Shown: piece after piece, positions 46,216 through 61,161 of the stretch | Position numbering within the stretch: position 1 is the stretch's first letter | Layout of the letters: the number at the start of each line of letters is the position of its first letter | Assembly (NCBI RefSeq): GCF_001613545.1 | Contig: NZ_BDCO01000002.1 | Location: 186,001 to 250,000, forward strand | Origin: Terrimicrobium sacchariphilum | Lineage (GTDB): Bacteria > Verrucomicrobiota > Verrucomicrobiia > Chthoniobacterales > Terrimicrobiaceae | DNA length: 64,000 nucleotides | Direction of reading: 5' to 3' | The notes under the pieces: generated by a model | What the model saw: only the letters and a program-made list of their open reading frames with translations | Told to the model about the DNA's origin: nothing | Database searches by the model: none | Program-made: the position numbers and the translations under genes

Positions 46216-46252
46216 AATTTGATAATGATTATTGACAATCAATTATCAAATT
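46216..46252 (+). promoter_or_regulatory. Fur/Zur-box-like palindrome upstream of the PEP-CTERM protein
   Basis: Perfect 11-bp arms AATTTGATAAT (46216-46226) and ATTATCAAATT (46242-46252) enclose GATTATTGACAATCA. The sequence GATAATGATTAT resembles the classic Fur box, and TGATTATTGAC resembles TGATACTTGAC of the palindrome at 45636-45675 (9 of 11 positions). It lies 46 nt upstream of the start of the surface protein gene. Confidence 0.65.
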
Positions 46253-46297
46253 TGGAAGGAAGTGAGAATCGGTTCTCAATATCAACCGAAAATTCTC

Positions 46298-47056
46298 ATG
46301 ATGAAATACAAGCTGCCCCTATTGTCCGGTCTCGTTGGAGTCGGAATGGTTCTCTCCGCGGGAATATCCGAAGCCCAAGCCATCTACACGTCTGGCCATG
46401 GCGACCTCGGTATTGAGTACACGCCGGGCGAGACGGAGTTTGAGGCACATTGGCACATTGGCGCTGGTGCGGTCGTCGATGGGGTGGCGTTAACGGAGGA
46501 GCAGGAGTTTTCGCCTGACGCCCTGGCAGCCCGCCTCGGTACGCAGGCGGCTGTCTCTTCCTCTGCCGTGGCTTCTGCTCTCGGTGTTTCTACGGGAGCG
46601 CAGGTCTATCGCACGGGAAATGCGGCCTATCCGCCGAATGTCGGATTTGGGCTTGAGGAGGTGGGATCAGATTCGGAGTGGTTGGATGGAAGCATTACGC
46701 TGACCCTCACCGGATGGACCGGACCGGGATCGCTTGCGGTCTCGCAGACGATAGCCAATGTCGGCACGTTTGTCTGGTTTTCCAGCGATGCCTCCAAGAC
46801 GCAGAACAGCAATGCCTGGGATTTCGCCGTGGGTGGGCATCAGCATCTCGATTGGTGGTTCTCCGAGGCGGGGACCTACTCGGTGACTTTCACCTGGACC
46901 GGAACCTATATCGGGGGTGAATCGCCCGTGGCGGTTAGCGGGTCGGGAGCATATGAATTCCAAGCCGTGCCCGAGCCGGGGACGTGGGCGTTGCTCGTCG
47001 CGGCCCTGCTTTTCGGAATGGTGGTTTATCGGCGGCGGATGCTGCCAGTACGTTGA
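46298..47056 (+). CDS. PEP-CTERM exported protein resembling choice-of-anchor M domain
   Basis: A 252-residue exported protein: signal peptide MMKYKLPLLSGLVGVGMVLSAGISEAQA, a beta-rich domain opening IYTSGHGDLGIEYTPGETEFEAHWHIGAGAVVDG, and the C-terminal sorting signal VPEPGTWALLVAALLFGMVVYRRR recognised by exosortase. The GHGDLGIEY...HWH pattern resembles the anchor-M repeat that in Actinobacteria is linked to zinc/manganese uptake. It also has WDFAVGGHQHLDWWFSEAGTYSVTFTWTG, another typical segment. Together with the Fur-like box upstream, this suggests a zinc-limitation surface protein. The domain match is from memory of the motif. Confidence 0.8.
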   Translation: MMKYKLPLLSGLVGVGMVLSAGISEAQAIYTSGHGDLGIEYTPGETEFEAHWHIGAGAVVDGVALTEEQEFSPDALAARLGTQAAVSSSAVASALGVSTGAQVYRTGNAAYPPNVGFGLEEVGSDSEWLDGSITLTLTGWTGPGSLAVSQTIANVGTFVWFSSDASKTQNSNAWDFAVGGHQHLDWWFSEAGTYSVTFTWTGTYIGGESPVAVSGSGAYEFQAVPEPGTWALLVAALLFGMVVYRRRMLPVR

Positions 47057-47817
47057 CCCACGGTGGAGAGACCGGTCCGCGCACTGTGTGTGGGCCGGAT
47101 TCCGTCCCAGATGCGAGGCGGGTTGCCGGGGCTTTCACCCTGGTGGAACTGCTCACAGTCATTGGGGTGCTGGCGATTCTGGCCTGCCTCGTCGTACCTG
47201 CGATTTCCTCGGGCGCGATGGCGGCGAACCGCGCCAAGTGCGCCTCCAATCTGCGGCAGATCGGACAGGCCATCCTCCTGTATGCCGGGGACCACGATGG
47301 GGTATTGCCTGTTACCTCCCATAGTACGGGAGATTCCCGGGTGAAGCTCAATGGGAAGTGGCTGAACTCGATCGAGTATAGCTGGGTCTACCTGCTGGCC
47401 GACTATCTGGATAATGTCGACAAGGTGCGGGTGTGCCCCGCGGATGAGGCTATTCGTCAGCGGCAGATCCTCCAGATGAAGGCGACGAGTTATTTGCTGA
47501 ACGATGAGGTGTTCGACTCGGAAGTTTACGGACGTTTTCAAAATCTTCCGCATCCCTCGCGACTCATGCTCGCCTTTATCAGCAACCGCCCGGTCAGTCG
47601 GACGTGGGACCATGCGCACTGTGCGGACTGGACCGCCTGGCCGGCGCTGACGACGGATGTCGCGGTCGATCGGCATCGCACCGGTGAACGGGCGGGATCG
47701 AGGCTCAAGGGATCAGCCAATTATCTCTTCGCTGACGGTCACGTGCAGAATATGCAGGCAACGGAGGTCAAGGCGATACTCGATCGCGGAGAGAACCCCT
47801 GGCTGCCAGGAGGCTAA
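47053..47817 (+). CDS. Prepilin-like protein with H-X9-DG-type C-terminal region
   Basis: A protein of about 254 residues with the type IV prepilin motif GAFTLVELLTVIGVLAILACLVVPAISSGAM, cleaved before Phe by prepilin peptidase. The C-terminal part has GSANYLFADGHVQNMQATEVKAIL, the 'ADGHV' pattern common in Planctomycetota and Verrucomicrobiota prepilin-type proteins. The start is unclear: a TTG at 47053 overlaps the PEP-CTERM gene stop (TTGA) and gives a leader of about 28 residues; a GTG at 46984 would overlap far more. Probably translated together with the gene before it. Confidence 0.7.
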   Translation: MTHGGETGPRTVCGPDSVPDARRVAGAFTLVELLTVIGVLAILACLVVPAISSGAMAANRAKCASNLRQIGQAILLYAGDHDGVLPVTSHSTGDSRVKLNGKWLNSIEYSWVYLLADYLDNVDKVRVCPADEAIRQRQILQMKATSYLLNDEVFDSEVYGRFQNLPHPSRLMLAFISNRPVSRTWDHAHCADWTAWPALTTDVAVDRHRTGERAGSRLKGSANYLFADGHVQNMQATEVKAILDRGENPWLPGG

Positions 47818-49946: not shown

Positions 49947-50298
49947 GCGCGGACTATAGCCTGCATGGGGCGACCAATACAGAAACAGCTTTGAGAATTA
50001 TCGATAGGCACAGTTGTGCCGGGAGTCGTCTGTATCGATGGGGAATCCCGCAGGCTGTCCCTGCCGGAGCTCTCTCCATTGAGGAAACCTCAAGCGCATG
50101 AACATCGTACGCATGATCATCGGGCTGGTCCGCCAGTTGCGGGATATACTGGATGAGACATGGAGGGTGCAGCTCTGGCTCTGGGAAAACTACAGCGACA
50201 GCCTCCCTGGTCGTCGGCCGCGGAAGTGAGCGAGCATCCGGGTCTCCTGTCGGGGACTCTTGCCTAGCGGTGGCAGATATCGCCATAATCCGTGGCTC
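49947..50298. other. Intergenic region; one weak small frame
   Basis: 352 nt between the divergent MocR and GntR-LacI genes. A 43-codon frame (50098-50229, MNIVRMIIGLVRQLRDILDE onwards) has an amphipathic helix and GAGGAAA about 12 nt upstream, but no other support. The MocR-proximal 120 nt presumably hold its promoter. No RNA gene or repeat was recognised. Confidence 0.35.
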
Positions 50299-51360
50299 AT
50301 GGCCCGCCCCGACACAGAATCCCGCCTGGCTTTGGAGCTGATTCGCCAGCGTCTTCTTCACGGAGATTATGCCCACCGCCTGCCGGGGGAGCGTCAGCTG
50401 GCGGGAGAGCTGGGATTGAGCCGACCGACGGTGCGCAAGGCGATCTCGCAGTTGCTCGAGGAGGGCAGCCTGTTGCGGACGGAGAGCGGGCGCCTGCATT
50501 TGCCCTCCGGAGACGGAGATGGAGTCCGACGCAAGGTAATCGCGTTCCTGCACCAGGGGTCCTCCCTCGGCCGGGAGGCGGGACTTTGGCGGGATGGTGT
50601 TTACGCCGCCGCAGAGAAGCGGGGCCTCACGGTGCGATCCATGGCTTATGAGCACGATGATGACCTGAGGATCAGCGCAGCCTTTGGCCGATACGACGGG
50701 GTATTCATCCTCCTCCACTCGCGGGACCAGGTGACGCCGCGATTGATGAAGCGCATTCAAGAAGCCGGGACGCGGGTTGTGGGGCTGGATCAGGACTGCT
50801 CTTCGCTCGGCTTGCGGTCGGTCATCGTGTTTCCGAGTGGATCGGTCTCAAAGCTGCTCGATCATTTGCGGGAACTCGGGCATCGCCGGATCAACTGCAT
50901 AAATGTCCAGGTCGACAACCCGGTGATCGAGTCCCGTATCGCAGCCTGGCAGGCGTATATCGACCAGCACGGGATCGACGGAGAGCTGTGCTCCGTGGAG
51001 GACGCGGCGACTCTCGGCGATGCTTATCGTGTGGTAGGAGAACGCATCCGGAAGGGATGGCTGCGGCGGGGAGCTGTCCTTTGCGTGACCCTGCAGGCTG
51101 CCATCGGAACCATGCGCGCCCTGTATGAGATCGGCGTGCGGATCGGGAAGGATGTGTCGGTCTGCGTCATTAACGACGAAGGAATGGGGCCGTACCTTGT
51201 ACCTTCGCTTACCTCGCTACAAATGCCCGCCCGCCAGAAATATGTGCAAAAGGCCGTCGACTGGATGGCCGGGCTGACAGAGTGGAAGACGCCCTCGCTG
51301 GTCCAGCCTCGCGATGCGCGATTGTTTATCGGGGAATCCACCGGCACATCGAGGCGGTAG
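50299..51360 (+). CDS. GntR-type HTH / LacI-type sensor hybrid regulator
   Basis: A 353-residue regulator. The N-terminal GntR winged helix reads LALELIRQRLLHGDYAHRLPGERQLAGELGLSRPTVRKAISQLLEEGSL. The rest is a LacI-like sugar-sensing domain (KVIAFLHQGSSLGREAGLWRDGVYAAAEKRGLTV; RVVGLDQDCSSLGLRSVIVF; VSVCVINDEGMGPYLVPSLTSL). It precedes an alpha-mannosidase by 59 nt on the same strand and probably controls it; an inverted repeat covering the mannosidase start is a candidate site. The Met of MARPDTESRLALE is chosen over a start at 50260. Confidence 0.9.
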   Translation: MARPDTESRLALELIRQRLLHGDYAHRLPGERQLAGELGLSRPTVRKAISQLLEEGSLLRTESGRLHLPSGDGDGVRRKVIAFLHQGSSLGREAGLWRDGVYAAAEKRGLTVRSMAYEHDDDLRISAAFGRYDGVFILLHSRDQVTPRLMKRIQEAGTRVVGLDQDCSSLGLRSVIVFPSGSVSKLLDHLRELGHRRINCINVQVDNPVIESRIAAWQAYIDQHGIDGELCSVEDAATLGDAYRVVGERIRKGWLRRGAVLCVTLQAAIGTMRALYEIGVRIGKDVSVCVINDEGMGPYLVPSLTSLQMPARQKYVQKAVDWMAGLTEWKTPSLVQPRDARLFIGESTGTSRR

Positions 51361-51401: not shown

Positions 51402-51427
51402 GGTAACAAAATCACTTCCGTGTTACC
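51402..51427 (+). promoter_or_regulatory. Inverted repeat over the mannosidase start, candidate operator
   Basis: GGTAACA (51402-51408) and TGTTACC (51421-51427) form perfect 7-bp arms 12 bp apart. The right arm overlaps the GTG start codon at 51420. Binding by the GntR-LacI regulator encoded just upstream would block initiation. Confidence 0.45.
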
Positions 51428-54400
51428 CAAGACCTTTCTCTCCCAATTGGTGCCGGCCAGGGTCGGCGAAGCCGTGCGCCGGGTTGAAAAGCAGATCTGG
51501 CGTGATCTGCCCGGTGAATGCCGGATCGAGCAGACCGAGCCCTCGCTCACATTTCGCACGGTCAAGGAGGTCGGCTCTGGAGATTTCCATCCGGTGCCCG
51601 AGGGGAGTTTTCACTGGGGACCGAAGTACGCTCAGAGCTGGTTCCGTGTGACTCTCCCGGAGATTTCTGCGGACGAAACGATATATTTCAACTGGCAGGA
51701 CCAGGCCGAGGCAACCGCATACATTGATGGTGTGCCGTACTCGGGGCTTGATATCGCCCACCAGCGAATTCCGCTGCCAGCCGGAACCAGAGAGCTTTGG
51801 ATCGAGTCGGTCTGTATTCGCAGCGGAGTGTGGCTGGCGGGAGAGGCTGCCCATCTTGACCAGGCGGGGAGTCTGTTCGTCGCGCCGAAACTGGAGTCGC
51901 GCAATGATGCCGCCTGGGCCGTATACCATGATCTCAAGGTAATGCTGGAACTCATGGAGACGGAGTTCTTTGAGTATCAGCCTACAGCACCCGGCCTGAC
52001 CAAGCCGCTCACCAGCCCGGTGCGGTACTCGGCCCCGGCATTTCGGGCGAGCCGCTTGCTTCGCCGTCTTTTTGAGCGTCTTGATCGTGCTGTGGATGTC
52101 CTGGATCATGAGGGGCTGGATGCGATGGTCGAGGAAATGCGCAGGGTCTATGCGGAGTTCCCTGGGTCGGTCGATGCAGGCAAGGTCGTGCTCACGGGTC
52201 ACGCGCACATCGATCTCGTCTGGCTTTGGCCGGAGCGGGTGGGGGAATTCAAAGCCGTGCACTCGTGGTCGACCCAGACGCGCTTGCTGGAGACGTATCC
52301 CGAGTTTCGTTTTGGCTATTCCCAGCCTGCGAGCTACGAGGCGGTCGGTCGTCGCTCGCCCGAGCTGCTGGATCGCGTGAAGGGGCTGATCCAGGCCAGG
52401 AAGTGGGATGCGGTCGGTGCAGCTTACGTTGAAGGTGACACCCAGATGCCGTGCGGCGAGGCGATCCTGCGTTGCCTGCGCATCGGGCAGGAGGAGTTTC
52501 GCGCGCTCAAGGGATCTCCGAGCGAGGTTTTCTGGCTTCCCGATGTCTTTGGATACAGCGGGGCGATGCCGCAACTCCTCAAGGGTCTCGGAGTGAAGAG
52601 CTTCTTCACCACCAAGCTCTCGTGGAGTTCCATCAACCGTTTTCCGCATACAAGCTTTGTCTGGCAGGGTCTCGATGATTCCTCGATCACTGCGCACGTC
52701 GTCCTGATCCATGATTATAATGAATGGGTCGATGTGAAGCGTCTGCGCGAGGATATGCTGCATCACCAGCAGTCGGCCGTGCATCCGGAGGTATTGATTC
52801 CTACCGGCTATGGGGATGGTGGCGGAGGACCGACCGAGACAATGATCGAGCGTGCGCGTCGTGTGGCGAATCTCGCAGGCATGCCGCAGGTTGAATGGGG
52901 CAACATCGAGCCGTTCTTCGAGAGACAGCGTGAGTTTCAGGACGAACTTCCAGTGGTCAAGGGAGAGCTGTTGTTGGAGTTGCATCGGGGTGTTTTCACC
53001 ACCCATGGGGAGTTGAAGTATCAATTCCGCCGGCTCGAGAGAGCCTTGCAGACGCTCGAGGCGGCTCACGTCGTGCGCGGTCTGGGTCCGATCGATCTGC
53101 ATTACTGGAAGCGGGCGAGCTTTTCCCACTTTCACGACTACATTCCGGGTAGTTCCATCTGGGAGGTCTATGCCGAGGCGATTCCGGAGCTTCAGCAACT
53201 GGCCGACAAGGCCTTCGCCGAGACGACGAGGGCGTTGAACGACTCTGCTGCGCCGACTCCTGCGTGGTTCAATCCGCTTCCACTCCCGCGTACCTGGATC
53301 GATGGGGATACTTGCTACGACGTGCCTCCGCTGAGCGGTGCGCCCGTAGCGGAGCTGACCCCTCTTGCAGTGCGTGCGCCGCGAGCTTCGGCCGGGACCT
53401 TGGAAAGTGAGCGCGTGGCCGCCACGTTCTCCGCGAATGGCTCCATTCAGTCGCTTCTCATCGATGGACGCAAGGTTGAGGTGACGGCGCATAAACTGGT
53501 TTCCTATCACGATCATCCGGCCGATTTTGAGGCTTGGGATGTCGATCGAGGCAGCATCGTTCTTGGTAGCGAAGCCCGCCTCGTGAGTGAACCCGAGATC
53601 AAAGTGGAGGGACTGGAGGCTTCCGTCGCCTTCTCCTATGAAATCGCGAAATCCAGCGCTGTCACGGTGATCTATTCCGTGCGCGCCGGGGAGCCAGCCC
53701 TGCGCATCCGGTATGCTGTGGACTGGCACGACCCGAAGCAATGGCTCAAGGCGATTTTTGTCAGTCAATACAATGGCAGGGAGGCTCGCTATGGAGCGCC
53801 ATTTGGCAGCGTGCTGCGCGGTCAGTGGCCCGGGTATCCCCGTGAGGAGGCGCTGTGGGAGGTGCCCGCCAGCCGCTGGGTGGTGGTCGCCGATGATGCG
53901 CAGAGCGAGGGCCTGGGCATACTTACGGAATCAAAGTATGGCTTCACCACGCGCGAGGGTACGGTAGGCATCAGCTTGCTGCGGAGCGCTTTGGTGACGG
54001 AGGCTCCGTTCCATCCACAGATCCGACCCACGCCCGACCGGCCGGACTATTCCGATCTCGGGCGGCAGACGATTGACATCGCGCTTACCCGTTACGCGCC
54101 GGATCTTCCCGTTCACGAGCAGCCTGCTGCCCTGGCTGATGTACTGTTCACTCCCTGCATTGCCTACCAGGGAGGGGCGGTGACCGCCGGTTTCCGTGGT
54201 TGCGCCGGTCTTTCCTCTGCCGTGCCAGCATGGGCTGAACCGCTCGACAAGGGATGGGTGCTCCGCGTGCACGAAACCCTGGGCCGTCGCGGCACTCATG
54301 CGCTCACCCTGAACGAAGGGACCACGGGTCGTGAGGCGGACATGTACGGTAAAGCCGTCGATCCCCTGGCGGTGGAGGAGTTGACTTTTACTCCCTACCA

Positions 54401-54428
54401 GGTGCGTTCGGTTTTGATCGACCAGTAA
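51420..54428 (+). CDS. Glycoside hydrolase family 38 alpha-mannosidase
   Basis: A 1002-residue GH38 enzyme. The catalytic domain shows [23 protein letters not shown] (about 255-277, zinc-binding His/Asp), the nucleophile Asp in [33 protein letters not shown] (near 373), [19 protein letters not shown] and [12 protein letters not shown]. C-terminal beta domains follow (about 640 onwards). It hydrolyses alpha-linked mannosides. No signal peptide is visible, so it is cytoplasmic. The GTG start gives the natural N-terminus. Next to a GntR-LacI regulator and a Gfo/Idh enzyme. Confidence 0.94.
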   Translation: [1002 protein letters not shown]

Positions 54429-54431
54429 GCG

Positions 54432-55559
54432 CTAGGGAACGTCGTACGGCACGGAGCCCTCGCGGAGGGAATTGGTTCCGAGATAACCGGCGGCCACGGC
54501 CTGCCGGGCGTCTTGCGGAGAGGCTCCCAGTGTCGTGCCGTTTGTCAAAAAAGAGAGGAAGTCCTCGATCATGAGGCGATCCGCACCGCCGTGGTGGCCC
54601 TCGAGCTGCGGCACTGTGCGGACTTCGTGTCCGGCAGCTTGATGGGAAACCCGCTGGTTCCAAAGATGGACCGTGGCGGGTTGTCCTGGGCGGGAGATGT
54701 CTCCGTAGTTCTCGATGCGGCCCTCGGTACCGATGATCGTGTAGTTGCGGTGGGCATCGGGGCTGTAGTGGCACTGCATGTAGGAGGCCTGCACGCCATT
54801 GGCGAGTTGCAGGAGGAGCATGCTGTGGTCCTCAATGTCGACGATGGGGCTTAATCCGACATGGGAGAGTGGCGGCCAGGTGGGAGGTTCGGAGTGCGTA
54901 CGTCCCGGCTCGTCAGCTTGGCGGCGATCACTGATCTTGTCGTAGACGCTGAGCTTTCCCATGCCGACCACTCGCCGGGTGTACGCTCCGCCCAGGTGAT
55001 GGATGATGTCGATATCGTGCGCTCCTTTTTGGAGCAACAGACCGTGGGAGTAGGCGCGTTCGGAATGCCAGTCCTTGAAATAAGCATCACCGCCATAACT
55101 CACGAAATGCCTGCACCAGATGGCCTCCACCCGGCCGATGCGGCCTTCCGTGATGAGCTGGTGCATGATCTGCACGGAGGGAAAAAACCGCATGTTATGC
55201 CCGACATAGAGGCGGGCGGAGGATTCGGCATGCACCTTCAGGATGCGATCGCAATCGGCGATGGAAACTGCCATGGGCTTCTCCAGGAAGACGTGCTTGC
55301 CTGCTCGCAGTGCGGCGCAGGCGTGCTCCGCGTGCAGGTGATCTGGCGAGCACACAAAGACAGCATCGATCGACGGATTACCCACGATGTCGCGATAATC
55401 CGCAGTGAACGGCACGGGAGCTCCAATCGTTTCGCGATAGACCTCCAGGCCGTCGGGCGATGATCCGCAGACGGCGACGACGGAGAAACCTCGTTCCGGA
55501 TGATGGGCGAGCAGCGAGATGCGGCCGCGGTTGTGCGCTCCGATGACGGCGAGTTTCAT
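54432..55559 (-). CDS. Gfo/Idh/MocA family oxidoreductase
   Basis: A 375-residue dehydrogenase starting at the Met of MKLAVIGAHNRGRISLLAHHP. The cofactor loop is GAHNRG rather than the usual GxGxxG. The family EKP motif lies in GKHVFLEKPMAVSIADCD (about residue 98), followed by YVGHNMRFFPSVQIMHQLI and LLLQKGAHDIDIIHHLGG. It converges on the mannosidase with 3 nt between stops. It probably processes a sugar derived from glycoside breakdown; substrate unknown. An alternative start at 55607 adds 16 residues of poor quality. Confidence 0.9.
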   Translation of the reverse strand: MKLAVIGAHNRGRISLLAHHPERGFSVVAVCGSSPDGLEVYRETIGAPVPFTADYRDIVGNPSIDAVFVCSPDHLHAEHACAALRAGKHVFLEKPMAVSIADCDRILKVHAESSARLYVGHNMRFFPSVQIMHQLITEGRIGRVEAIWCRHFVSYGGDAYFKDWHSERAYSHGLLLQKGAHDIDIIHHLGGAYTRRVVGMGKLSVYDKISDRRQADEPGRTHSEPPTWPPLSHVGLSPIVDIEDHSMLLLQLANGVQASYMQCHYSPDAHRNYTIIGTEGRIENYGDISRPGQPATVHLWNQRVSHQAAGHEVRTVPQLEGHHGGADRLMIEDFLSFLTNGTTLGASPQDARQAVAAGYLGTNSLREGSVPYDVP

Positions 55560-55642
55560 GAGTCTGACAGGGCGAAGGATACACCTGCCAGCGGGATAAC
55601 CCATCAAATTTCCGGCGGATGGGCTCTCGCCCCATTCTCCGG

Positions 55643-58600
55643 CTATTCTGTCACGACCTCAATCCGCTGATCGATGACCTTGCCGGTGAAGCGGTCGATG
55701 GCGACATGCAGCCAGTAGCGGCGCTCGCTCTCCACGGTGAACTGCGCGAGGGCGCTCGCGCTCGGGGAGTAACGGCCCGACTGGGCGATGAGGTCAATCA
55801 TGAGATTCCAGGTGCGCGTCTGGGTGACGTCGCCCAGCGCTCGCACAAAGGCTTCGCGGCGCAGCTTGATGTTCTGAGCGTCATTGTTGGGAAAGTTTCC
55901 GCTCGTCGTGCTGCCGGTGGTGGGGCTGAGAAAGGGACTGACCAGGGTGGCCAGTTCGCTCTTGTTGACGATTTTGTTGGTCGCGGTGAATCCGCTGATC
56001 GATGCGGCGAGCGTTGTCGCAGTCGTAGAGGTCATTGAAATGCTGGCCACCGGATCGATGACAGTACCAGCGAGCAATGACTTGAGAACATCCTGGTTGC
56101 GGGTGTTCAGGTTGACCTTGCCGGTGACGAAGGGCTGGGTCGAATCCTGCACGCTGAAAATATCGAGCAGGGCAGAATCCGCACTTTTCGAGGAAAACAG
56201 GTCGAGGGTTTTCCATGGGCCATCCCGGAAAACAAAGCCGAGTTCACCCACGGTGCGAAACGGACGGTTCAGCACCACCGGCTTGTCGATGCTGCGCTCA
56301 AAGGGGTTGCCAGAGATGCCGGTGGCATCCACGAACAGGCCGGAATCCGAGATGCGGCGCAGGCCGTCATTGTCGACATAGCTGGTCTCCGAACTTGATC
56401 CGGACGCCGTGACAGTGTTGTTGCTGCTGTCAGCGATGGCCGTGTTGCGGCCGTAGTTATTACGGGCAAGCTGCGCGGGGAAGTAATTGTCTCCGAAGAT
56501 GGTCGGTTTGCGCTCCACCATGGTGCTTCCGCCGCCGAATCCTTTTTCGAAGGGGGCGGCGTTATTGGTTGATGACCAGAGGATCGTATGCTCGGCCAGC
56601 AAGGCTGCGGCCAGCCCGCTGCGAATGAAAACCCAGGCGTTAAAGCGCGTGGAGCGCGGATCGTTCGAGGCAAAGATCGGAGAGCGATCCCAGGAGTTGT
56701 CGTGTGTGATACGAACTTTGCCTCCGCTGCCTGGAGTGCTCCAGGGATCGCCAGTCTCCGAATTCTGCACGGCGCCCGTCGCCGAATCCACCGTCCAGCC
56801 AGACGGGTACGGGCCGCTCAGGTAGGAGATGAAGTTTGCGTAATATTGACTATCGCTCGCGCGCTGGACTGATGAGACGATGGGCAGGCTGGCCAACACG
56901 TCGCGGAACCATGTCGTATTATCGTTGATGCCGGTGGCGTATTGATAGGGAATCCACTCGCCGGAGGAGCCGTTGGGCCGGAGATACTCCATCACCACGT
57001 TGAATGACTTGCTGATGGTGGCGGTGGCGTCGTAACCGAGGCTGACCTTTACCGAGTTGAACTGGCTCGAGGTAAGGGTGCTGGTCGTGCCGAGCTTGAA
57101 GGGGAAGTCCCTCAGGCGTAGCGCCGCGACATCGGAGACTGGATTGACGACGCCGAGAGTGTACGCTTTTACCCAGGCGCCTGCGGTGGCTGGAGAGGGC
57201 ATCGTCGTAGTGGAGCCAAGGTTTGTCGAGGGGTCGTAAATATCCGCCTCGCGTAATGTGGCCGGAGCGCCGAAGCCTCCCACCGCAGTGCTCGAAAGTT
57301 CGATCGACTGATCGAGGGTCGAGACAAATCCGGGCTCGTTGCCTGAGCCGAGGGTTTCGGGCAGGGAGCCGTTGTCACCGTATTTGTTATAAACGGCAAC
57401 CGACCCCTTAACCCGGATTCGCACTCGGGGCAGGCTGGATGAGACGGTCTGGTGGGGGTTCCAGAGATTGAAGGTCAGGTAGACCGCTGCATTGGCCGAG
57501 GTTTGGGTAGGGGTTTGCGAGTTGGCCTGTGCGCCGATGACGGGAGTGATGGAGGCGATGCCCGGCAGACTTTCCACTCCGCAGGCCAGCCATGAGGTAC
57601 CGCCCTGGGAATACTCAATCGCGGTCGGAAATGAATCGGTATCCGCCTGGTCGATGGCGGCAGCTCCCATCCGCAGGATTTGAAACATTGGATAGGTTTG
57701 CTGGATGCTCGCATTGTATGCGGATGACCCGCCGGACGCTCCGGCGTTGCCATTGAGTCCGAGCGAACCCTGGAGAATTGCGGCCTGGAGGAGTTCAAAG
57801 AAATCCGGGGCGCGACCCTCTGTGGCGACTTCGCTCAAGGTCTTGATGCGCTGTTGCTCTGTGGAACCCGACACGCCGACATATTTCCAGACGGAGGCAC
57901 CGCCGAGCGCGGGGTCGAGGGATGGTCCCCAGACGAGTCCAAAGCAGGCCTGGACAGCTGCTGCCGACACCCCATTGGGTCCTCCCGAGCCGACCCAGGC
58001 AAGGCGGGACAAAGGAAAGCGCCTCTGGATCACCTCGTCGCCTGGTTCGACAGTGTAGGTATAGGCTGTTCCAGAGGAGTTGTAGTTCGTGATGGTGTTG
58101 GTCGAGGTGAACCGGACGCCGGGGAGGAAGCGATTCGGGTTGGGGCTTGCGCCGGAGAAGGGGGAGGAGGTTGAGACGCCTGCGTTATTCTTATAGGCAT
58201 AGGCTGGCGTGCTGACACCGCCCAGCGAAGAGGCGTTGTAGGTCGGTCCCCAGGCCGGGGAGTTGCGGTCACGGGAGAAGGTGGTCAGGTTCGGCAGGGC
58301 ATTCGTTGATAGTCCAGCGATCCCTCCCTGCGCGGCCTTGATGAGATCCTGTCGGCTCAGGAACGTATTATCACCCGGATACACGGTTCCCGCAGCGTTG
58401 GTCGTCAGGAAATTTGTCACGTAGTTGACATACGACGATTTACTGGCGGCATTGCGCCACTGCACGAGATCATCCTGATTGATCGAGGAGCTGGCATTCG
58501 CTGGCGATACCCCGGCGAGTAGTCCCTTGATCTGCTCGATTTGCGTGGCGGTGAGCGCGGCTGGATAACCCGCAAGAGTGATATCGAGCAACCCGCCGAC

Positions 58601-59254
58601 ATCATAAATGGCGTAGGCAAAGCGCCCGATGGCAAAGTTGGTGTTGCCCGGGGCCGGATTATTCGCCGTGTTGCCCGTCGCACCAAAGGAAAGTCCGCTT
58701 CCATTGGTGGCGCCTGCGCGCGTCATGATGATCCAGTTGGGCGTGCTGGCGGTGGTGGGGAAGTTTCCCAACTGGGGAAGGTTCCACCGGTTGGTGTCGA
58801 TGTATCGCCCGTTCTGGGAAGAGGTGAAGGTATTGACTGAGGAAGCAATGAGCTTCCCAGAGGCTTGCGACCCGGTGTATGGCGCGGTGGTCGAGCTGAT
58901 CTTGAGCAGATTGGTCATGGCGGAGTTCGTACCCACGGGCTGCGGCATGACGTTGGTCGAGGAGACGTTGGTATAGAGCGGCTTCTGCGGGTATGTCAGA
59001 TCGGCGGCCGCATCCTTGCCCATTTCATTCTGGAGCTCGGCCACGATGAGACGGAGACCGCCCTGGGCGACCTGCTCGGCGGAGAGAGCCTGGCTGTAGC
59101 TGAATGATGCGGTGCGCTCCACGCGCATGGCAGCGACGAAAGCAACCAGGATGAGGCTGACAACGACAACGAGCGAAAGAACCGTGATGAGCGCGACGCC
59201 ACGTGTACGCCGGGACGGATTGCTCCGGGGAAAGGAATCAGGGGAGGGAGACAT
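55643..59254 (-). CDS. Verru_Chthon cassette protein A, giant GspK/PilX-like pseudopilin
   Basis: A 1203-residue protein with N-terminal RTRGVALITVLSLVVVVSLILVAFVAAMRVERTASFSYSQALSAEQVAQGGLRLIVAELQNEMG. The hydrophobic helix after a GV junction, with no Glu at position 5, then a helix with the xxSYSQALSAEQVAQGG pattern, matches GspK and PilX. The remaining 1100 residues are Ser/Thr/Asn-rich with beta-like repeats. I recall it as cassette protein A (TIGR02600). Last of four overlapping genes (D-B-C-A); overlaps C by 17 nt. Family assignment is good; function is unknown. Confidence 0.88.
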   Translation of the reverse strand: MSPSPDSFPRSNPSRRTRGVALITVLSLVVVVSLILVAFVAAMRVERTASFSYSQALSAEQVAQGGLRLIVAELQNEMGKDAAADLTYPQKPLYTNVSSTNVMPQPVGTNSAMTNLLKISSTTAPYTGSQASGKLIASSVNTFTSSQNGRYIDTNRWNLPQLGNFPTTASTPNWIIMTRAGATNGSGLSFGATGNTANNPAPGNTNFAIGRFAYAIYDVGGLLDITLAGYPAALTATQIEQIKGLLAGVSPANASSSINQDDLVQWRNAASKSSYVNYVTNFLTTNAAGTVYPGDNTFLSRQDLIKAAQGGIAGLSTNALPNLTTFSRDRNSPAWGPTYNASSLGGVSTPAYAYKNNAGVSTSSPFSGASPNPNRFLPGVRFTSTNTITNYNSSGTAYTYTVEPGDEVIQRRFPLSRLAWVGSGGPNGVSAAAVQACFGLVWGPSLDPALGGASVWKYVGVSGSTEQQRIKTLSEVATEGRAPDFFELLQAAILQGSLGLNGNAGASGGSSAYNASIQQTYPMFQILRMGAAAIDQADTDSFPTAIEYSQGGTSWLACGVESLPGIASITPVIGAQANSQTPTQTSANAAVYLTFNLWNPHQTVSSSLPRVRIRVKGSVAVYNKYGDNGSLPETLGSGNEPGFVSTLDQSIELSSTAVGGFGAPATLREADIYDPSTNLGSTTTMPSPATAGAWVKAYTLGVVNPVSDVAALRLRDFPFKLGTTSTLTSSQFNSVKVSLGYDATATISKSFNVVMEYLRPNGSSGEWIPYQYATGINDNTTWFRDVLASLPIVSSVQRASDSQYYANFISYLSGPYPSGWTVDSATGAVQNSETGDPWSTPGSGGKVRITHDNSWDRSPIFASNDPRSTRFNAWVFIRSGLAAALLAEHTILWSSTNNAAPFEKGFGGGSTMVERKPTIFGDNYFPAQLARNNYGRNTAIADSSNNTVTASGSSSETSYVDNDGLRRISDSGLFVDATGISGNPFERSIDKPVVLNRPFRTVGELGFVFRDGPWKTLDLFSSKSADSALLDIFSVQDSTQPFVTGKVNLNTRNQDVLKSLLAGTVIDPVASISMTSTTATTLAASISGFTATNKIVNKSELATLVSPFLSPTTGSTTSGNFPNNDAQNIKLRREAFVRALGDVTQTRTWNLMIDLIAQSGRYSPSASALAQFTVESERRYWLHVAIDRFTGKVIDQRIEVVTE

Positions 59255-60023
59255 AGCGTTCGAAAATCTTCAATCCGCTTGTGAGGGTTTTCGGGTAGGC
59301 ATCCCAGTTGAGGTCATTTTTGAGATATTTCTCCCAGTCGGCCTTGATGCTGTTGGTGCCGGTGGCATTGGTGTTGAAGCCATTGCGCAACGCTGAGATT
59401 TTGGCCGGATTGGCGCTCAGGAGTTCCAGTGTCTTGTCATCGACCACGGCGAGGCCCACTGCGGCGACCCTCGGGCGGTTGGTCGCGACGTAATTGGTCG
59501 AGATCGAGCCATCAGGATAGATAAACTGCACCTTGAAGCCGACAATGCCGGGGGCGGTATCACGAGGTGTCGCCCCCGCCGGAGCGACGGTATCACCGAA
59601 CGCGGGAGGCGCGGAGGAACTCCAGGACGCGGCGAGATCAGCGCGCTGGAGCACGGTATTCGTCGATGCTCCCAAGTCATATTGAACCCACGAGAGGTTG
59701 CGGGTGGTGGCATTGCTGGAGAAACCGGGGCGTTCTGTGTAGAAGCCCACGGTTCCCGCGGGGAAGGCTGGGAGGTCGGTGCGATAGAGACCTCCCTGAA
59801 GGTCGCGGGTCAGGAGATCCATCATGGCGCGGCCCTTGGTGAAGTTATTTACCCGGGCCTGTCCGGTGATCCATGTCTGGCTGGTCGCCGAGAGCATCTG
59901 GGCCAGCACGACCGAGATCAAGGCCAGCACAGTGATGGCGACGAGCAACTCAACCAGCGTGAAGGCGTGGCGGGCGCTTTTTCGCCGGCAGGGCAGTCCG
60001 GGAATGTCAATACAACGGGACAT
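59238..60023 (-). CDS. Verru_Chthon cassette protein C, GspJ/PilW-like pseudopilin
   Basis: A 261-residue prepilin: leader MSRCIDIPGLPCRRKSARHA, then FTLVELLVAITVLALISVVLAQMLSATSQTW, a methylation helix with Glu at position 5 and the W-containing extension of GspJ-like proteins. A globular part with Asn/Thr-rich strands follows (LSWVQYDLGASTNTVLQRADL). The start is set at 60023 because upstream sequence is antisense-like. Overlaps B and A by 17 nt each. Corresponds to cassette protein C (TIGR02599) from memory. Confidence 0.87.
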   Translation of the reverse strand: MSRCIDIPGLPCRRKSARHAFTLVELLVAITVLALISVVLAQMLSATSQTWITGQARVNNFTKGRAMMDLLTRDLQGGLYRTDLPAFPAGTVGFYTERPGFSSNATTRNLSWVQYDLGASTNTVLQRADLAASWSSSAPPAFGDTVAPAGATPRDTAPGIVGFKVQFIYPDGSISTNYVATNRPRVAAVGLAVVDDKTLELLSANPAKISALRNGFNTNATGTNSIKADWEKYLKNDLNWDAYPKTLTSGLKIFERYVSLP

Positions 60024-60465
60024 AGGTGAGGGCCTCGTAACGTCCTGCCGCGTTGCTGATCGAGGCCTGGTACGGCCAACTGAGCATGACATAGACCTGG
60101 GCGAGCCGCGGTCCGGTCTGGGCATTTGTGCCGGCACGGCAGACGATGCGATAGGCTGGTGTGCTGTTCGTGCGTCCGTCGAGCCCGACCAGGCCTCCCG
60201 AGGAGGCATAGACATCGCCATAGGAGTTGGTGAGAGCGGTAAGGGGGATTGCAAAGTTGTTGAGATTGGAACTCGTGGTCGGCGCAGCCAGGCGGGTTGC
60301 GAGGATCTGGGAGGCGAGATTGGCCGCCTGGACCTGTTCCTCGGATTCGCGACCGGTGCGGAGGCCGGTGCTGAACAGGCCGATAAGCGCAACGAGGACA
60401 AACGCGCAAATACCGAGGGCGAGGACGACCTCAACCAGGGAGAAAGCTCGCGTGGGGTGTTTCAT
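60007..60465 (-). CDS. Verru_Chthon cassette protein B, GspI/PilV-like pseudopilin
   Basis: A 152-residue prepilin with short leader MKHPTRA followed by FSLVEVVLALGICAFVLVALIGLFSTGLRTGRESEEQVQAANLASQIL. The FSLVEVVLALGI motif and length match GspI/PilV-type minor pseudopilins. It includes GRTNSTPAYRIVCRAGTNAQTGPRLAQVYVMLSWP in the globular part. 6 nt after D, overlapping C by 17 nt. Corresponds to cassette protein B (TIGR02598) from memory. Confidence 0.87.
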   Translation of the reverse strand: MKHPTRAFSLVEVVLALGICAFVLVALIGLFSTGLRTGRESEEQVQAANLASQILATRLAAPTTSSNLNNFAIPLTALTNSYGDVYASSGGLVGLDGRTNSTPAYRIVCRAGTNAQTGPRLAQVYVMLSWPYQASISNAAGRYEALTYVPLY

Positions 60466-60471
60466 GGTGGG

Positions 60472-61161
60472 TCAGGGGCGGAAGACGGCGGTCTGACCGG
60501 TGAGTCCATTGACTCTCAGGACAGCGACGTTGTTCTGGTCTCCGGACTTGCCCCGGGTGGGGCGCAGACCGAACTCGATCACATCGATGACGTTGGATGA
60601 AACTCTCGCCTCGCCGTTGGGGGTAAACTGAATGACGCGGGTGAAATCGGTCGTACCCGACGCTCCAGGCAGCTTGATCCTGAAAGATGCGGTGTTGTCC
60701 GCAGGGGAGTTTTTCGAGGCGGAGGTGGTGGTTTTTCCTGAGAGGCTGGGAATATCGCTCGAGGTGAAGGTCCCTGCCTCTTCCAACCGGATCTGGTCAA
60801 ACGTACGGACTCGGGTGGCGAGATCGATCTGGTCGTTGGGTACGCTGCCGTAGCTCGACCACGGAGACGGGTCCGTACCGGTCTTGGAGGCGAGCACTGC
60901 CACACTGAGTTCATCGCCATTGGCCCCGCCCGGGTTGGGGCGCATGGCCACCCAGACGTAGGTATTGCGGGAGATCGCGTATTGCCGGGCCTGCTCGAGC
61001 GTGCCGGACAGCTCGATGAGAGCCTGGGTCATCTGATTTCCCTTGGCCATGGAGGTCAGCGCTGGAATCGCCAGGGCCACCAGCACGCTCATGATCGCGA
61101 TAACGACTAACAGTTCCACCAAGGTGAATCCGGAGCCGGGCTTCTGGGGTCGCAGTTTCAT
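60472..61161 (-). CDS. Verru_Chthon cassette protein D, GspH/FimT-like pseudopilin
   Basis: A 229-residue prepilin: MKLRPQKPGSG then FTLVELLVVIAIMSVLVALAIPALTSMAKGNQMTQALIELSGTLEQARQYAISRNTYVWVAMRP. The AxxSRNxYVWVAM region after the helix is the characteristic GspH/FimT pattern. The C-terminal part ends VIDVIEFGLRPTRGKSGDQNNVAVLRVNGLTGQTAVF. First gene of the cassette, transcribed from about 61.2 kb. Corresponds to cassette protein D (TIGR02596) from memory. Confidence 0.87.
   Translation of the reverse strand: MKLRPQKPGSGFTLVELLVVIAIMSVLVALAIPALTSMAKGNQMTQALIELSGTLEQARQYAISRNTYVWVAMRPNPGGANGDELSVAVLASKTGTDPSPWSSYGSVPNDQIDLATRVRTFDQIRLEEAGTFTSSDIPSLSGKTTTSASKNSPADNTASFRIKLPGASGTTDFTRVIQFTPNGEARVSSNVIDVIEFGLRPTRGKSGDQNNVAVLRVNGLTGQTAVFRP

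Follow-up and report, generated by a model that had tools for sequence, protein, structure and literature searches.

A predicted minor pseudopilin cassette with a giant GspK-type protein in Terrimicrobium sacchariphilum

Introduction

What do the four proteins of a Verru_Chthon cassette build, and which machine would they serve? The question arises from the genome of Terrimicrobium sacchariphilum, a soil bacterium. Strain NM-5T is a verrucomicrobium of the class Spartobacteria with a published draft genome (PMC5532833). The genome comprises 4,751,807 bases in 3 contigs, and the stretch of 64,000 nucleotides analyzed here is referred to as the window. An initial annotation described four minus-strand genes in the window, in the order D-B-C-A, labeled them Verru_Chthon, and read them as the GspH, GspI, GspJ and GspK minor pseudopilins that form the tip of a type II secretion system (T2SS). 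No publication using the name Verru_Chthon was found in the literature searched.

Results

All four open reading frames were recovered on the minus strand: D (60472-61161, 229 aa), B (60007-60465, 152 aa), C (59238-60023, 261 aa from its start ATG at 60023) and A (55643-59254, 1203 aa). The motifs on which the first reading was built are in place, SRNTYVWVAM in D, FSLVEVVLALGI in B, TSQTWITG in C and RGVALITVLS in A, and the B/C and C/A overlaps, when re-read, are both of 17 nt. The two junctions recur in the nearest paralogue (L057, 66% identical) and in the relatives' loci L099, L100 and L103, and the C/A overlap alone recurs in L059, L101, L102 and L114. The 17-nt overlaps are inherited within this small clade. 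Since junctions elsewhere are 4 nt, 1 nt or gaps, we rejected the 17-nt overlap as a general signature of the cassettes.

The genes around the cassette point to sugar metabolism. One flank carries a GntR/LacI-type sugar-responsive regulator (50260-51360, plus strand; Peripla_BP_3 4e-20, GntR 2.3e-9), a GH38 alpha-mannosidase (51420-54428, plus strand; Glyco_hydro_38N 2.4e-66) and a GFO/IDH/MocA oxidoreductase (54432-55607, minus strand), and the opposite flank an FAD oxidoreductase and a GH31 gene. The GFO/IDH/MocA gene lies directly downstream of A across a gap of about 35 nt and possibly shares a transcript with it. Orthologues in LR76 and in an SCN18 MAG (78-81%) keep this downstream gene; at the orthologous loci L099 and L101 it likewise comes after A.

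The identity of the cassette as a minor pseudopilin set is well supported. The residue Glu5, reported as lacking in A as it is in GspK, is indeed not found at position +5. It is absent from all A proteins of the genome (25/25), and A carries a class III prepilin signal. A single-sequence search matched A to GspK (NF037980) at 9e-8 over residues 18-91, slightly above Verru_Chthon_A, with both scores well under their cut-offs. The NCBIfam GspK model was matched by 26 of 40 A proteins, which makes it their commonest NCBIfam match, ahead of Verru_Chthon_A. The placement of A in the GspK group, proposed as a check in the initial annotation, was borne out by profile-profile comparison, in which 58 A proteins were set against 31 GspK proteins of the same order. 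A matched GspK and none of GspG, GspH, GspI or GspJ; the A-K pair scored 86.7 and the pairings of A with the other four reached at most 7.9. In the hhalign alignments, residues 12-67 of A were matched to positions 4-59 of GspK (P 91-95), and residues 996-1063 (NRPFRTVGELGFVF...GKVNLNTRNQDVLKSLL) to positions 161-212, the block of C-terminal GspK motifs (P 92, E 7e-7). A weak GRFAYAIYDVGGLLDIT match at residues 210-226 lies between the two and is collinear with them. Segments 340-620 and 620-960 of A, used as negative controls, gave no hhalign match to the GspK profile.

Structure prediction led to the same family. For mature A, AlphaFold gave a model (52 sequences, pLDDT 82, pTM 0.88) in which residues 2-58 form the pilin helix, 189-199 a strand, and 1129-1143, 1153-1168 and 1174-1181 three C-terminal strands. 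It shows the GspK layout, in which a large helical domain is inserted into the pilin helix-and-sheet fold behind the first strand. When the model was compared with solved structures by VIA-align, four GspK chains headed the results (9a1f_T, Z 10.9; 3ci0_K, 10.3; 5vtm_X, 10.1; 6utu_C, 10.0), followed by a row at Z 5.5; 230-267 of the 259-295 residues of the GspK chains were aligned. Foldseek returned nothing significant for the whole model, as can happen with a split domain, and it was the second aligner that found GspK. A Pfam scan of A gave no family, and matches to ERGIC_N and Stx2e (E about 0.2) were attributed to chance. The Pfam family PF03934 (T2SSK) did exceed its cut-off within giant A-like frames of three relatives (L081, L083 and L092). 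Other PF03934 matches were rejected as GspK, the frames resembling unrelated helix-hairpin-helix proteins. Profiles and model thus concur in describing A as a GspK-type protein. It is not a standard GspK, given a score of 32 bits against the curated NF037980 cut-off of 130 bits and a length of 1203 aa against about 300 aa.

The additional length is concentrated in one place. The collinear GspK matches stop near residue 226 and restart at 996, so that positions 98-161 of a normal GspK (62 residues) correspond to about 770 residues in A. Profiles and model together indicate some 700 extra residues within the GspK helical domain, splitting the GspK core. The insert occupies approximately residues 321-975 (56330-58294, minus strand), with an alpha part (321-545) and a beta-rich part (546-975). 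Variability within A peaks in the beta part, where mean pairwise identity is 21.6% against 33-63% elsewhere and the length ranges over 287-555 residues among A proteins. The flanking GspK parts are better conserved, a pattern expected if a conserved chassis bears a changing recognition domain. In the structural comparison of A, the insert gave weak beta-sandwich matches (Z at most 4.5) that carry no functional reading.

The proposed identities of the other three proteins fared unevenly: the GspJ identity of C held, as did that of A as GspK, and B and D matched their counterparts through the N-terminal helix alone. The AlphaFold model of C (pLDDT 88.7) aligned with XcpW/EpsJ/GspJ chains at Z 10.0-10.9, the next, unrelated row falling to 3.9, and Foldseek matched it to GspJ with probability 1.00 (E 9e-6 to 6e-3). 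Family members of C matched TIGR02599 in 47 of 47 cases and gspJ in 27 of 47. C is therefore GspJ by its predicted fold. Members of the B family matched TIGR02598 (31/31), PilV (20/31), XpsI (12/31) and GspI (10/31, at E up to 0.01), with the window copy falling below the GspI cut-off; the likeness to PilV, XpsI and GspI lies in the helix. The best profile match of B was GspI (P 96.2), over the N-terminal 60 columns alone. D scored 42.5 bits with GspH TIGR01708, below cut-off. Pfam GspH was found in 9 of 31 D members (best 2.7e-6), the window copy reaching 18.0 against a cut-off of 21, and profile matches of D to GspG, GspH, GspI and GspJ were confined to the N-terminal helix, which is GspH/GspG-like. 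Profiles made from the globular parts alone of B, C and D gave no match to GspG, GspH, GspI or GspJ of the same genome. The globular domains of B and D have diverged beyond the reach of profiles, so the two were assigned by helix, size, gene order and partial family matches, and on these grounds B is likely GspI and D likely GspH.

The Verru_Chthon label itself applies only in a loose sense. The window set consists of the same four gene types as the Verru_Chthon cassette (TIGR02596, TIGR02598, TIGR02599, TIGR02600), but all four proteins score below the curated NCBIfam cut-offs: D 45.2 bits against 70, B 37 against 51, C 50 against 257 and A 29 against 332. The window cassette belongs to a divergent sister subfamily, while 13 canonical copies of the same genome exceed the TIGR02600 cut-off. 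When profiles of window-type and canonical A were compared, the first 228 residues aligned with P 98.5 and the C-terminal GspK motif with P 76.8, whereas the inserts of the two subfamilies could not be aligned. The order also differs, canonical cassettes being mainly B-C-A-D or B-C-D-A.

Three observations extend the initial annotation: the number of copies in the genome, their sugar-utilization context and a fifth gene, E. TIGR02600 matches occur at 23 places. Reading these neighborhoods and adding two further pilin clusters gave a total of 25 cassettes; 13 of them are canonical, and the other 12, the window copy among them, are divergent. The D-B-C-A order is found in 10 of the 12 divergent copies and 2 of the 13 canonical ones. 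Among relatives, where conservation of this order had been suggested as a check, the order is D-B-C-A at 37 of the 50 loci that could be tested. A survey of the phylum gave at least one match in 159 of 289 sampled genomes, with 8 over the cut-off. Some cassettes (L040, L043, L058 and L067) are incomplete or rearranged: A is accompanied by nothing but B or stands by itself, or D is encoded on the other strand or was not detected.

Gene E lies directly 3' of A and encodes a secreted protein of about 170-300 aa with a signal peptide. All but one of the 12 divergent cassettes have it, as do, counted by eye, 36 of 57 loci of relatives (loci with E include L053-L060, L066, L067, L100 and L103). It usually overlaps A by 4-8 nt, and a Pfam scan of eight E proteins found no family. 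The window copy and its orthologues L099 and L101 are without E. In the window A ends in GAATAG and in paralogues in GAATGA, the ATGA of which is the start of E. E has been lost from the window copy and its orthologues.

The partner machine was predicted to lie elsewhere, with no ATPase in the window, and both statements were upheld. None of the eight T2SSE-type ATPase matches of the genome falls in the window (0/8), and one complete classical operon, at C2:3004-3022 kb, encodes gspG-H-I-J-K-L followed by a secretin, GspE and GspF. Its GspK is of ordinary size (303 aa; T2SSK_1st 2.2e-10), and 106 of 117 genomes from the order have a classical GspK, so the cassettes supplement a full T2SS and do not replace it. 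A machine ATPase adjoining a cassette was seen in a single relative, a Spartobacteria MAG in which a GspE/PilB-type ATPase (T2SSE, MshEN) is divergently placed beside a D-B-C-A cassette (L150:228-4958). A second filament machine (L061:4409-19000 and L062) comprises several pilins together with GspF-like and T2SSE-type proteins; one of its proteins, pilin-like and 443 aa long, is without Glu5 and matched no Pfam family.

The surroundings of the cassettes are enriched in LacI-type regulators and carbohydrate enzymes, and most of the 25 lie next to genes for sugar degradation. A LacI-type sensor domain is found no more than 6 kb away from 16 of the 25 cassettes, where 3.9 are expected and none of 5000 random sets reached 16. 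With random places limited to cassette-bearing regions, the expectation rises to 5.3 (0.0002). Compared with random loci, the neighbors of cassettes are rich in CBM4_9, AXE1 (acetyl xylan esterase), SSF (sodium/solute symporters), GH38, GH28 and alginate lyase. A similar pattern surrounds the cassettes of other genera, as seen there without a matched control. Under the regional null, PEP-CTERM proteins showed no clear excess near cassettes at 3 or 6 kb. Independent support for a sugar-linked context comes from Verruconatronum alginivorum, which over-expresses a pseudopilin on alginate and has 67 PulG-like copies (PMC13274419). The two verrucomicrobia share the possession of many pseudopilin copies, one of them over-expressed there on the organism's polysaccharide. 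They differ in that the genes of V. alginivorum are PulG-like, while those described here form H-I-J-K cassettes with a giant K.

Discussion

We consider it probable that the D-B-C-A cassettes encode GspH-I-J-K-type tip sets, exchangeable and locally induced, for a shared T2SS (or type IV pilus). Pseudopilus assembly would start from a GspI-J-K-type cap made of B, C and A, and D would join this cap to the shaft. The cap would then enter the shared assembly platform as the GspG shaft grows below it. XcpX/GspK tops the tip complex (PMC6211770), and by analogy A, a GspK-type protein without Glu5, would be outermost in the cap. Each cassette would be induced together with the local sugar-utilization genes and would supply its own version of the tip to prime the shared T2SS, or else a type IV pilus machine, and the variable insert of A could reach from the tip toward the secretin or the outside, binding local enzyme cargo or outside polysaccharide. 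We infer from this arrangement a tip-exchange function, in which Verru_Chthon cassettes would be exchangeable tips of one machine and not 25 separate machines. Only tentatively do we extend the proposal to one machine with some 25 interchangeable tips, each induced by its own sugar regulator and each bearing a different large domain within GspK to select the material for export or binding; such a tool-changing T2SS would be spread across Verrucomicrobiota.

The comparison with the T2SS tip (GspH-I-J-K or XcpU-V-W-X) rests on gene order, prepilin signals, the missing Glu5 of A and the GspK and GspJ folds. The cassettes depart from it in that A is about four times larger than the usual GspK of about 300 aa, that they are encoded away from the machine and in many copies per genome, and that most divergent cassettes add the secreted protein E. 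In type IVa pili, FimU-PilV-PilW-PilX-PilY1 make up a similar priming complex of minor pilins, which includes a large tip protein. There, however, the large protein is the separate PilY1, whereas in the cassettes the large part is inside the GspK-type pilin.

This second likeness invites the reading that the cassettes cap type IV pili rather than a T2SS pseudopilus, with A uniting in one chain a PilX-type minor pilin and PilY1 and serving as an adhesive tip that binds polysaccharides or surfaces. We regard this as unlikely, even though further T2SSE-type ATPases and another pilin locus occur in the genome, an MshEN/T2SSE ATPase adjoins the cassette of L150, and matches to PilV are commoner for B than matches to GspI. 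Within the insert, the beta part weakly resembles adhesin beta-sandwiches such as Als9-2 and SdrC (Z 4.1-4.5), but these matches are under a meaningful level; the one set of chains that stands out for A is GspK, with its helical domain, and for C the matches are to GspJ.

That A is itself cargo, a pseudopilin-anchored enzyme or binding protein that is assembled without any role as a shared tip, seems improbable to us. Such a protein would fit the large variable insert and the presence of one cassette for each catabolic locus, but the insert holds no recognized enzyme family, the GspK core is conserved at both ends of A, and A is encoded with GspI/J-like partners in a mostly fixed order. Finally, it is highly improbable that the cassettes encode cell-envelope proteins with borrowed pseudopilin folds that no longer assemble with a secretion ATPase or secretin: machine genes are indeed absent near almost all loci, but prepilin signals and alpha1 helices are kept in all four cassette genes across the order, which argues for assembly into a filament.

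Families annotated only under a placeholder name now receive a structural identity. Furthermore, substrate recognition by the T2SS is a long-standing open question, and a bacterium with 25 naturally occurring versions of the tip, many of them next to different catabolic loci, would allow a direct test through swaps of tips and inducers.

The cassettes are not the only source of pseudopilins in the genome. A genome-wide search gave 129 prepilin N-terminal matches (E up to 10), 57 of which lie outside the cassettes and the two machine loci, so that solitary pseudopilins are about as many as cassette-borne ones. In addition, a solitary prepilin gene comes after a PEP-CTERM C-terminus, on the same strand and at most 1.2 kb away, in 14 cases, where 0.8 are expected at random and the maximum in 2000 trials was 6; a few of these pairs share one open frame, and some may be fusions or match artefacts. 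One pair lies in the window (46232-47817) and others at C2:256571, 679648, 1479669, 3125048 and 3537754, among further places.
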